Positions 55,406-59,606 of a stretch of DNA of 64,000 nucleotides are shown one piece after another. Position numbers and translations under genes: made by a program. Origin of the DNA: Acidovorax sp. A79 (GTDB lineage Bacteria; Pseudomonadota; Gammaproteobacteria; Burkholderiales; Burkholderiaceae_C); the NCBI RefSeq assembly GCF_041154505.1, contig NZ_AP028672.1:1253001-1317000 (forward strand), given 5' to 3'. Below the pieces are notes generated by a model. The model had not been told where the DNA came from and made no database searches. It saw only the letters and a program-made list of their open reading frames with translations. Within the stretch, counting starts at the first letter, position 1. Every line of letters begins with the position of its first letter.

Positions 55406-55531
55406 ATGAAAAAGACCGCAACCCTCATCGTGCTCGCCATCACCTTCGTGCTGGCCGGCTGCAACACCGTCAAGGGCGTGGGCCAGGACGTACAGCGTGC
55501 CGGCGGCGCCCTCGAGCGCGCCGCCAAGTAA
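55406..55531 (+). CDS. Entericidin-family small lipoprotein
   Basis: Peptide lipoprotein of 41 residues: [20 protein letters not shown] (signal peptide with lipobox LAGC), then [20 protein letters not shown], which matches the entericidin pattern. GAAGGAG precedes the ATG. It sits between leuC and leuD, a placement I know from other Burkholderiales. Entericidin-like proteins are envelope lipoproteins linked to stress and cell lysis in enterics; there is no antidote partner here, so a toxin role is not implied. Confidence 0.88.
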
Positions 55532-56284: not shown

Positions 56285-57358
56285 ATGAAAATCGCAGTTC
56301 TGCCGGGTGACGGCATTGGCACCGAAATCGTCTCTGAAGCCGTCAAGGTTCTGGAGGCCCTGGAACTCCCGTTCGAGATGGAATCCGCCCTGGTGGGCGG
56401 CGTGGCGTACGACGCGCACGGCCATCCACTGCCCGAGTCCACGCTCAAGCTCGCCAAGGAAGCCGACGCCATCCTGTTCGGCGCCGTGGGCGACTGGAAA
56501 TACGACAAGCTCGACCGCCCCCTGCGCCCCGAACAAGCCATCCTGGGCCTGCGCAAGAACCTGGGCCTGTTCGCCAACTTCCGCCCCGCCATCTGCTACG
56601 AGCAGCTGGTGGGTGCATCCAGCCTCAAGCCCGAGCTGATCGCGGGCCTGGACATCCTCATCATCCGCGAGCTGACGGGCGACATCTACTTCGGCCAGCC
56701 CCGCGGCCGCCGCGTGGCCACCGACGGCCACTTCCCCGGTGCCGAGGAAGCCTTCGACACCATGCGCTACAGCCGCCCCGAGATCGAGCGCATCGCCCAC
56801 GTCGCCTTCCAGGCTGCGCGCAAGCGCAACAAGAAGGTCACCAGCGTGGACAAGGCCAACGTGCTCGAAACCTTCCAGTTCTGGAAGGACGTGGTCACCG
56901 ACGTGCACAAGGAATACCCCGACGTCGAGCTGCAGCACATGTATGTCGATAACGCCGCCATGCAGCTCGTGAAGGCGCCCAAGGCGTTCGACGTGGTGGT
57001 CACGGGCAACATGTTCGGCGACATCCTGTCGGACGAAGCCTCCATGCTCACCGGCTCCATCGGCATGCTGCCCTCGGCCAGCCTGAACAGCACCAACCAG
57101 GGCCTGTACGAGCCCAGCCACGGCAGTGCGCCGGACATCGCCGGCAAGGGCGTGGCCAACCCGCTGGCCACCATCCTGTCGGCCGCGATGATGCTGCGCT
57201 TCAGCCTGAACCAGGAAGCCGCCGCCCAGCGCATCGAAGCCGCGGTGCAGAAGGTGCTGGCCCAGGGCCTGCGCACCCCCGACATCTACAGCGAAGGCAC
57301 CACCAAGGTGGGCACGGCGCAGATGGGCGATGCAGTGGTCAAGGCGCTGGCCGCCTGA
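56285..57358 (+). CDS. leuB: 3-isopropylmalate dehydrogenase
   Basis: NAD-dependent enzyme of 357 residues. [23 protein letters not shown] opens the protein. [68 protein letters not shown] and [29 protein letters not shown] complete the family signature. It ends the leuCDB group, followed by a strong terminator. No clear ribosome-binding site: the 5' side is the A-rich end of repeat copy F. Confidence 0.97.
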
Positions 57359-57380
57359 ACCCCACCGCCCGGCGGTCACG

Positions 57381-57409
57381 AAAAAGCGCCGGTCCTCCGG
57401 CGCTTTTTT
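57381..57409 (+). terminator. Terminator downstream of leuB (bidirectional)
   Basis: AAAAAGCGCCGG, loop TCCT, CCGGCGCTTTTTT. A run on one side and T run on the other, so it can serve leuB and the convergent gene at 57434. Confidence 0.92.
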
Positions 57410-57433: not shown

Positions 57434-58108
57434 CTACACCCACGCGTTGTCGATGAACTCCATGATGGAATAGCACCGGTTTTCCAGCGGCCGCTCGCGC
57501 ACGGCCGCCACGATGTGCGCGACACCCTCCGCATACGGTGCATCGCCATAGACACGGGTTTCCAGCGTCACGCTGCACGCGCCATCCTCGATCAGCACCC
57601 GGTGGTAAGCGTGGCGGGCGAGATGCTCCTGGGGAATGTGCAGCACGTCCCGTTGCACCCCGGCATCGCGCACGGACCGGATGTCCCCCGGCGCCAGGCC
57701 CAGTGCCTGCGCCATGCTGACGGCCGTGCCCGGCACCGAGGACTTCTGGGCCTGGTGGGATTCGGTCAGCCCGGTGCGGTAGCCGCGAAACAGAGGCCCG
57801 CTGCGCTCCAGCATGGCCATGAACTTGAGCATGAGGATGTTGGTGTTCGGACACAGGACGACCGGAAAACCCACCACACGCCCTTCCAGCCCGGACCCGG
57901 TGGCCAGTTCTACCAACGGGGAGTGCGTGGATTCGCAAAAGGCGCAGGCAGCCTCCAGCTCCCTGCCGGAACCGGCATGCAGCACGACAGATTTTTCTGC
58001 ACGCTGCCCCTCACCGGCCCATGGCAAAACCTGCGCTTCGCCACGGGCAGGCAGCGCCCCCAGAAGCTCCTTGGCCAGCTTGCCTGACCCCACAACGATG
58101 ACTTGCAT
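57434..58108 (-). CDS. Divergent dihydrodipicolinate-reductase-like protein
   Basis: Protein of 224 residues related to DapB but shorter (DapB is usually near 270). It opens VIVVGSGKLAKELLGALP, a short Rossmann start that lacks the full GxxGxxG pattern. The substrate-site motif is GLTESHQAQKSSVPGTAVSMAQAL. Against E. coli EAHHRHKVDAPSGTAL, the first catalytic His and the Lys remain, the second His is Gln, and the Ser is lost. The final segment is RCYSIMEFI. It may use another substrate or be a non-canonical paralogue; a canonical dapB is expected elsewhere. Start ATG 58108 gives the Rossmann N-terminus. Confidence 0.6.
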   Translation of the reverse strand: MQVIVVGSGKLAKELLGALPARGEAQVLPWAGEGQRAEKSVVLHAGSGRELEAACAFCESTHSPLVELATGSGLEGRVVGFPVVLCPNTNILMLKFMAMLERSGPLFRGYRTGLTESHQAQKSSVPGTAVSMAQALGLAPGDIRSVRDAGVQRDVLHIPQEHLARHAYHRVLIEDGACSVTLETRVYGDAPYAEGVAHIVAAVRERPLENRCYSIMEFIDNAWV

Positions 58109-58267
58109 TTCTACTTTCGAATTGAACAAAGGAGGCAAAGGCAGCACTGTAGACCGCCGCACCGGCGTGGCGCGCGGCCAGCCCGGCTGGGCGGGCTCTT
58201 TTTGCGCCGCCCACGGAGGGCGCGCGCCGCAGGGCCGCCAGCGCACCCGGATCCAGGCCGTATCCGG

Positions 58268-58273
58268 TACAAT
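58268..58273 (+). promoter_or_regulatory. Possible -10 element of the asd leader
   Basis: TACAAT, 8 bases before the leader ATG, so transcription would begin almost at the ATG. The -35 side is poor, so the promoter is provisional. Confidence 0.4.
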
Positions 58274-58281
58274 ATTCGCCT

Positions 58282-58383
58282 ATGTTTGCCGCCCGCCCGT
58301 TCGCCCTGAACATCGCACCCGCCGCCCTGGCCGGTGTGGCTGCGCGCGCAACCATCACCAAAACCACGACCATTAAGGGCTGA
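58282..58383 (+). CDS. Candidate asd leader peptide (33 codons, Thr/Ile/Lys-rich end)
   Basis: ORF from ATG 58282 to TGA 58381-58383. The first 23 residues are Ala-rich; residues 23-33 are [11 protein letters not shown], with five Thr, two Ile and two Lys codons in the last ten (from 58351). Asd makes aspartate semialdehyde, the common precursor of Lys, Thr, Met and Ile. The layout matches thr operon leaders, where ribosome stalling at Thr/Ile codons relieves termination. No ribosome-binding site is seen; a leaderless start at the promoter is likely. Translation is not shown. Confidence 0.65.
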
Positions 58384-58387
58384 CTCA

Positions 58388-58460
58388 GCCTGGTTCGTCG
58401 TGCGCCCTCCCTGGCCAGACGAGCCAGGCGAGCAGTCCGGTCTGGCACTGTTTCTTATTT
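58388..58460 (+). promoter_or_regulatory. Candidate attenuator of asd: alternative stems then T-rich run
   Basis: Segment 1 GCCTGG (58388-58393) pairs with CCAGGC (58424-58429). Segment 2 CCTGGC (58410-58415) pairs with GCCAGG (58423-58428). GCCAGAC (58414-58420) pairs with GTCTGGC (58440-58446). These share bases, so only one set can form. The last is followed after 4 bases by TTTCTTATTT, like a weak terminator. Segment 1 begins 4 bases after the leader stop. Confidence 0.55.
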
Positions 58461-58475
58461 AGAAAGGGCGTTGAA

Positions 58476-59606
58476 ATGAGCAAGTTGGTAGGGTTGGTTG
58501 GCTGGCGCGGAATGGTCGGCTCGGTCCTGATGGACCGCATGGCGCAGGAGAAGGATTTCGACCTGATCGAGCCGATGTTCTTCTCCACCTCGAACGCAGG
58601 CGGCAAGGCTCCCGCGCAGGCAAGGAACGAGAGCACCCTGCAGGACGCGTTCGACATCGAGGCCCTCAAGCGCTGCGAAATCATCATCACCGCCCAGGGC
58701 GGCGACTACACCAACGAGGTCTATCCCAAGCTGCGCGCCGCCGGCTGGAACGGCCACTGGATCGACGCCGCCTCCTCCCTGCGCATGGAGAAGAACGCCG
58801 TCATCGTCCTGGACCCGGTCAACATGCCCGTGATCAAGAACGCCCTGGCCCAGGGCGGCAAGGACTGGATTGGCGGCAACTGCACCGTGAGCTGCATGCT
58901 GATGGGCGTAGGCGCCCTGTACAAGGCGGGTCTCGTGGAATGGATGAGCACGCAAACCTACCAGGCGGCCTCCGGCGGCGGCGCGCAGCACATGCGCGAG
59001 CTGCTCACGCAGTACGGCACGCTCAACGCCGAAGTGAAGGCCCTGCTCGATGACCCCAAGAGCGCCATCCTGGAAATCGACCGCAAGGTGATCGCCAAGC
59101 AACGCGCCCTGACGGGCGCTGAAACCGCCAACTTCGGCGTGCCGCTGGGCGGCAGCCTGATCCCCTGGATCGACAAGGACCTGGGCAACGGCATGTCCAA
59201 GGAAGAATGGAAGGGCATGGCGGAAACCAACAAGATCCTGGGCCAGGGCGAGGGCTTCAGCGCCCCCGCCGTGCCGGTGGACGGCTTCTGCGTGCGCGTG
59301 GGCGCCATGCGCTGCCATAGCCAGGCGCTGACCTTCAAGCTGAAGAAGGACGTGCCCCTGGCGGACCTGGAGGCCATGATCGCCGCCGACAACGAGTGGG
59401 TGAAGGTCGTGCCCAACACCCGGGAAGCCACCATCAAGGACCTGACGCCCGTGGCGGTGACCGGCACCATGGACATCCCCGTGGGCCGCATCCGCAAGCT
59501 GGCCATGGGGCCTGAATATGTCGGCGCGTTCACCATTGGCGACCAGCTGCTGTGGGGCGCGGCCGAACCGCTGCGCCGCATGCTGCGCATCCTGCTCGAC
59601 GCCTGA
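58476..59606 (+). CDS. asd: Aspartate-semialdehyde dehydrogenase
   Basis: NADPH enzyme of 376 residues that makes aspartate semialdehyde from aspartyl phosphate. [19 protein letters not shown] starts the Rossmann fold; the catalytic Cys is in [26 protein letters not shown] and [13 protein letters not shown] supply the substrate site. It belongs to the E. coli-like long class. AAAGGG lies 7 bases before the ATG. Its mRNA appears to be preceded by a Thr/Ile/Lys leader. hom and thrC, which use its product, are at 34-37 kb. A strong terminator follows. Confidence 0.96.

Follow-up and report, generated by a model that had tools for sequence, protein, structure and literature searches.

Aspartate-semialdehyde dehydrogenase, the product of asd, lies on the way to threonine, isoleucine, lysine, methionine and the cell-wall precursor diaminopimelate. 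In Acidovorax sp. A79 the asd gene is preceded by a short reading frame whose last codons are nearly all for threonine, isoleucine and lysine, and this raises the question of whether asd expression is set by a leader that reads the supply of these amino acids. An earlier note on this DNA had proposed such an attenuator, with a transcription terminator as its output. The locus was analysed in a stretch of 64,000 nucleotides (the window) and in related genomes. We regard ribosome-mediated attenuation as such as very likely, and from sequence comparison we consider it likely that asd expression is set, through the attenuator, by how far the tRNAs for threonine, isoleucine and lysine are charged. 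If this is true, it would be a three-amino-acid sensor for asd across a large bacterial family.

The leader upstream of asd

The proposed controlled gene, asd (58476-59606, + strand), encodes a protein matching TIGR01745 (asd_gamma), PF01118 and PF02774. The 33-codon frame described in the earlier note is real: it occupies 58282-58383 on the same strand, and its stop codon lies 92 nt from asd. The last ten codons (58351-58380), nine of them for Thr, Ile or Lys, are the putative control codons. Among 1,531 stop-terminated tails of 10 residues collected from both strands of the window, this was the only one with six or more Thr, Ile or Lys residues, and the other 1,530 had at most five each. The leader is also kept within the genus, as all 30 loci obtained from 40 genomes carry it. 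Pfam and NCBIfam gave no match to the leader peptide, and Rfam gave none across the whole window at gathering scores and none for 58200-58520 at E<=5. By Asd identity the nearest named locus among the best 80 matches listed was from Acidovorax (95%), and the remaining named loci among these 80 were mostly from Comamonadaceae or related Burkholderiales.

In the window leuB (56285-57358, + strand) ends in ..VVKALAA, without a Thr/Ile/Lys tail, and the free leader is 1,117 nt from it with another gene between. A terminator-like site (57380-57409) separates leuB from this gene, which runs on the opposite strand (57434-58246). The product of the gene matched the dihydrodipicolinate reductase C-terminal domain PF05173 below threshold (20.1 bits, cut-off 27), which suggests a possible lysine-pathway-like protein next to asd. 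A small lipoprotein-like ORF (55406-55531, + strand), which we take to resemble entericidin, was seen among the clustered leucine genes that precede leuB.

A -10 box, TACAAT (58268-58273, + strand), was found 8 nt upstream of the leader ATG. It fits the transcript start expected near 58280 in the earlier note, and the window transcript is predicted to begin on the ATG itself or no more than about 2 nt away. The same arrangement is general among free leaders: TACAAT, TATAAT or TAAAAT stood 6-8 nt before an in-frame ATG in 49 of 61 non-redundant free leaders and in none of 3,076 control ATGs. A looser -10-like hexamer was found 3-11 nt before an in-frame ATG in all 61 (in 55 of them at 6-8 nt), by a rule which chose the best of several ATGs and was met by 103 of the 3,076 control ATGs. 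Since the -10 box lies 6-8 nt upstream of the ATG, the free-leader mRNAs are probably leaderless and transcribed from their own promoter. The free leaders are presumably translated.

Distribution of the codon run and the RNA element

The search covered 150 genomes of the family (126 genera); the region upstream of asd was read in 129 of them, and the other 21 are outside the tally. For the RNA a model, R1, was built from 60 non-redundant loci, spanning the leader stop codon through S3, the distal stem arm described below. The conservation asked for in Comamonadaceae and their relatives was found, in that run and RNA element occurred together in 105 of the 129 genomes, neither in 20, the element only in three and the run only in one. 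The association is strong (Fisher p 3e-19, uncorrected for relatedness), and some of the 129 had helped to build the model, so that their matches are by construction. The element-only genomes were L147, L231 (with a degenerate tail) and L224, and the genome with a run and no element was L247; hence 20 of the 21 genomes lacking the element also lacked the run.

R1 matched 12 of 300 genomes of the order. All ten genomes of the window's family in this sample had one match each, always beside asd. Weak matches outside the family, in G044 (E 6e-4) and G179 (8e-4), had no asd on the fetched stretches and were set aside as chance. In the genome of the window the only strong match was at asd, the next having an E value of 0.04.

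In 264 loci, close relatives counted, 190 of 915 tails located 40-260 nt upstream of asd had at least seven Thr, Ile or Lys residues, against 3 of 12,118 tails elsewhere in the same loci, and one of these three belongs to L224, where an inserted reading frame has moved the leader away from asd. The distance from leader and element to asd is here 634 nt, and the intervening frame, GNAT-like by eye, may be under control of the switch.

The set for structural comparison excludes 47 of the 264 loci, in which the run or the element was lacking or less than 55 nt remained up to asd. Removal of near-duplicates gave a set of 130, consisting of 61 free-leader loci, 67 LeuB-tail loci (see below), and L147 and L231, which were tallied with the LeuB-tail loci to give a set of 69. 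The last ten residues of the free leaders comprised 267 Thr, 109 Ile, 107 Lys and 3 Met among 610, and those of the LeuB-tail set 230 Thr, 105 Ile, 147 Lys and 9 Met among 690. Threonine is therefore the commonest residue, Ile and Lys each making up about one sixth to one fifth, and the run is enriched in products of the pathway fed by asd, with methionine rare. Codon choice varies within each amino acid, ACC being the commonest Thr codon. Such an upstream frame, rich in codons for the end products of the pathway, is what characterizes an amino-acid attenuator. Because threonine dominates the run, sensing of isoleucine and lysine is less certain than that of threonine.

Putative control codons on the LeuB C-terminus

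Beyond what the earlier note had described, about half of the family genomes examined have the control codons on the C-terminus of LeuB. The run was a C-terminal LeuB tail, not a free peptide, in 64 of the 129 genomes (including L247, which has no element); 42 genomes, with that of the window among them, belong to the free-leader class, and 23 had no run near asd. The 80 named loci comprised 60 with a free leader, 16 with a LeuB tail, two with neither (L107, L110) and two with too little upstream sequence (L061, L099). In all 64 LeuB-tail genomes asd follows leuB at 73-145 nt in the same direction. The arrangement with leuB directly before asd and a tail was found in Roseateles, Paucibacter, Methylibium, Sphaerotilus and some Hydrogenophaga loci, and examples of such tails, read up to the stop codon, are ..GDAVVAAITKTITKG, ..VKAITTTKTIKS and ..VVAAIVGSTASTTTKTITKKS. 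Being part of the enzyme gene, LeuB tails are translated.

The tails go with the RNA. The comparison took in every locus whose LeuB end could be read, 223 in all with close relatives among them: where an S1-like motif followed the leuB stop codon, 585 of 937 tail residues were Thr, Ile or Lys (85 loci, mean length 11), against 51 of 520 where it did not (138 loci, mean length 3.8). The motif-bearing loci had 66 distinct tails, five of which (NM, AL, ALK, ALA and ALNKSKG) are short and show no run, and a few runs (L230, L247, L249) among the other loci were missed by the motif rule. When homologues of one tailed LeuB were ranked, 119 of the best 120 of 8,000 scored, which are the nearest relatives of the query, ended in such a run, 104 of them in ITKTITKG; the named ones were mostly from Hydrogenophaga. 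One LeuB-like protein (P0001), on a contig of 2,482 bases, has 441 residues, compared with the usual 362 among the homologues listed.

With the control codons on the LeuB tail, a ribosome finishing leuB would sense for the next gene. On a tree of Asd at least five changes between the free-leader and LeuB-tail states were counted, in a quick reconstruction of 96 rows in which 41 of 93 inner branches were weak; the starred branches alone force three changes for the free-leader group and two for the LeuB-tail group. We think it fairly likely, from these comparisons, that the LeuB end in about half of the genomes examined is a Thr/Ile/Lys sensor, at which each ribosome that finishes leuB reads how far three tRNAs of another pathway are charged and opens or masks the Shine-Dalgarno region of asd accordingly, and that this sensor moved repeatedly between a free peptide on a leaderless mRNA and an enzyme tail with the RNA switch staying in place. 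If so, LeuB tails would be regulatory codons inside an enzyme gene, tying the leucine operon to the aspartate family, and the C-terminal extension of many annotated LeuB proteins would be explained. The repeated switching between free and fused forms would offer a natural experiment on the origin and loss of leader peptides. In the titles and abstract openings of the papers listed, which for two of the literature listings were 20 of 138 and 20 of 117, we recognised no description of a LeuB tail of this kind or of an asd leader peptide in these bacteria, and within the same limits we came upon no earlier case of an upstream enzyme whose tail carries regulatory codons for amino acids. The word "asd" is absent from the main text of PMC2965389 and PMC4833913.

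Competing RNA structures

Between the leader stop codon and asd there are overlapping complementary segments, as had been claimed. S1 (58388-58399) is the arm directly 3' of the leader stop codon and can form 12 bp with S3 (58418-58429), while a part of S3 (58423-58428) can pair alternatively with S2 (58410-58415). Between S1 and S2 lies L, GCGCCCU (58402-58408), complementary to the asd Shine-Dalgarno region AGGGCGU (58465-58471), which it is proposed to mask. Within the Thr codons of the leader, region 1, CACGAC (58365-58370), has a pairing partner in GUCGUG (58397-58402), and GGGCUG (58377-58382) has one in CAGCCU (58386-58391), both by folding. All of these segments are on the + strand.

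The structure alignments were made without seven of the 130 loci (L121, L261, L262, L263, L172, L173 and L247), and alignment A1 consisted of 60 of the 130 loci, for which every other one was taken once further loci had been excluded. The compensatory changes in the stems that the earlier note had wanted checked are present in S1:S3. Of the cells at 11 tested pairs 93.0% were standard pairs, changes on both sides occurred at five of the 11 pairs (16 cells), and four of the five measures were equalled by no shuffle in 500; the remaining one, further pair types, was reached by 445 of 500. For S2:S3, 87.1% of cells were paired, eight cells had changes on both sides (2/500 shuffles) and the covariation score was reached by 8/500, the weaker measures being cells paired (54/500), pairs changed on both sides (329/500) and further pair types (329/500). 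In a test with swapped partners the cognate S1:S3 arms were favoured in each class (0/2000 permutations); this test and the shuffles are inflated by the relatedness of the loci. At one position of S1, S2 and S3 the bases were T, T and A in five of 60 rows, C, C and G being the commonest combination (23 rows). As S1:S3 and S2:S3 share S3, this arm has two partners, as an attenuator needs, and of these mutually exclusive stems S1:S3 covaries clearly and S2:S3 more weakly.

The swapped-partner test for region 1, subject to the same inflation, gave for free-leader loci no preference for the cognate with a short segment (1429/2000) and 62/2000 with a long one; for LeuB-tail loci the values were 14/2000 and 20/2000. 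These comparisons lend weak to moderate support to a pairing of region 1 with the S1 side. In several LeuB-tail lineages (L155, L166, L150, L203, L215, L104, L193, L216) a further stem around S3 was noticed by eye, with arms that are changed and still match (for example CACAAACCC/GGGTTTGTG, CACACACCC/GGGTGTGTG, GGACCCC/GGGGTCC) and with no clear U tract in the eight.

A ribosome at the stop codon should reach the S1 arm with its footprint, and one stalled in the run should not. Stalling in the Thr/Ile/Lys run would leave S1 free to pair with S3 in a long hairpin which takes up L, so that the asd Shine-Dalgarno region would be open (the proposed ON state). When the tRNAs are charged, the ribosome would proceed to the stop codon and cover the 5' part of S1; S3 would then pair with S2, and L would close the asd Shine-Dalgarno region (the proposed OFF state). 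In free-leader genomes (42 of the 129) the codons would be read in a short peptide, whose mRNA would be leaderless and have a promoter of its own.

Shine-Dalgarno masking or termination

The OFF state could be a masked Shine-Dalgarno region, as outlined above, or, as in classical transcription attenuation with the same sensor, an intrinsic terminator before asd. When the first 15 nt after the stop codon were removed, the minimum-energy fold joined the L region to that of the Shine-Dalgarno by four pairs or more in 55 of 61 free-leader loci (395 of 1220 shuffles) and in 54 of 69 of the LeuB-tail set (428 of 1380 shuffles), the helix being missing in 21 of the 130 loci. At one flanking pair there is covariation, with 32 of 39 pairable against a permuted mean of 20.2 (0/5000). 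The other position tested shows none, with 41 of 70 pairable against a permuted mean of 40.4 (2136/5000) and a C-A mismatch in 29 of 70. With swapped partners the cognate helix was favoured in free-leader loci (19/2000) and in the LeuB-tail set (0/2000), again with the inflation by relatedness. The calculated openness of the Shine-Dalgarno region fits masking only in the free-leader loci: blocking of S1 lowered the predicted mean from 0.47 to 0.36 in these, whereas in the LeuB-tail set it went from 0.47 to 0.51, with a drop of more than 0.2 in six of 69 loci and a rise of more than 0.2 in 10 of 69.

Among the 61 free-leader loci 25 had a terminator-like stem with a T-rich tail (28 of 305 shuffles), as did 11 of the 69 in the LeuB-tail set (16 of 345 shuffles). 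A few of the sites in LeuB-tail loci look good, and in L177, L182 and L190 a stem CAAACCC/GGGTTTG is followed by four to six T. This enrichment makes termination possible in free-leader loci. The scan found no such site in 36 of 61 free-leader loci and in 58 of 69 of the LeuB-tail set, however, and the longest T run was three or less in 39 of the 69. Nor was there a common terminator stem. The stem 58414-58420/58440-58446, which the earlier note had taken for the terminator, does exist in the window, but the T in the tail that follows it, TTTCTTATTT, is interrupted by other bases, and as a conserved OFF structure it was rejected, the exact stem occurring in only four of the 61 non-redundant free-leader loci (L001, L008, L204, L254) and 23 of all 135. 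What stands of the attenuator proposed there is the Thr/Ile/Lys leader with competing stems at asd; its terminator is poorly conserved.

Since the terminator stem is poorly conserved and the Shine-Dalgarno pairing more consistent, control is probably exerted at translation initiation, rather than by termination or besides it. We somewhat favour masking of the Shine-Dalgarno region as the main output on these results, and lineages may differ: in some of them an intrinsic terminator may act instead of masking or beside it. Classical termination as the OFF state seems to us possible, yet rather unlikely.

Other readings of the run

The run might instead be a nascent-peptide arrest sequence in the style of SecM or TnaC, in which the peptide itself, not a shortage of tRNA, stalls the ribosome. 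In favour of this, the residues next to the stop codon are mostly KG or KS, and among free-leader loci the DNA of the final codons is closely similar. The LeuB tails, however, share a composition and not a motif, as order and length vary, and the enriched residues are products of the asd pathway, with Met being as rare as 3 of 610 and 9 of 690; arrest by the peptide is thus improbable. The structure might also do no more than couple the translation of the two genes, leuB and asd, with the tail as a by-product. This would suit the short co-directional spacing in the 64 LeuB-tail genomes, but is improbable too, because run and element also accompany free leaders far from leuB (1,117 nt in the window, with a gene between) and because 20 of the 21 genomes without the element are without the run as well.

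Comparison with known attenuators

In erm-type attenuation a ribosome stalled on a leader ORF unmasks a ribosome-binding site. The asd element would resemble it in that a stall in the leader ORF opens a masked site, and would differ in its signal, which would be uncharged tRNA, stalling in erm-type systems being drug-induced and serving resistance genes.

The thrL attenuator of the E. coli thr operon, like its counterpart in V. natriegens, combines a hairpin switch with a short leader in which Thr and Ile codons occur, according to the available part of one paper (PMC12925634), and it serves the same pathway. The differences are several. ThrL precedes thrABC, whereas the asd element precedes asd (TIGR01745), not thrA(BC). 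In the portion of that source available, thrL has Thr and Ile codons and a poly-U terminator (PMC12925634), whereas the asd leader adds Lys and its output looks translational. The asd control codons may moreover sit on LeuB, and the window has no Rfam match. The asd element would work like the amino-acid attenuators, but with another gene, added Lys and no Rfam match it is not thrL.

The nearest precedent, among the partial sources, for leader-region RNA that pairs with the Shine-Dalgarno sequence of the controlled gene is the LEU element upstream of leuA in Actinobacteria (PMC1262725). There, in the part of the paper available, the run of Leu codons itself pairs with the leuA Shine-Dalgarno sequence, with a pseudoknot; gene, amino acid and phylum are also different (PMC1262725). 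The trpL transcript of Sinorhizobium meliloti is leaderless, starting at the ATG (PMC7298713, in part), as is predicted for the free asd leaders, but it has Trp codons, precedes trpE and, in the same excerpt, works by transcription attenuation with trans-acting products. The Corynebacterium ilvB-II motif, found by comparative genomics, likewise has a conserved ORF that precedes a biosynthetic gene and is rich in codons for its end products; as described in the excerpt available (PMC10272879), it differs in its branched-chain amino-acid codons, its terminator stem with a U stretch and its gene, ilvB.

Leaders of a similar kind were noticed in another family of the order, where five loci (L121, L123 and L261-L263) have Thr/Ile/Lys leaders before asd. 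R1 had no match in these five at E<=0.1. Four of them have TAGACT or TATATT hexamers 6-8 nt upstream of the ATG, and the leader end can pair with sequence after the stop codon.
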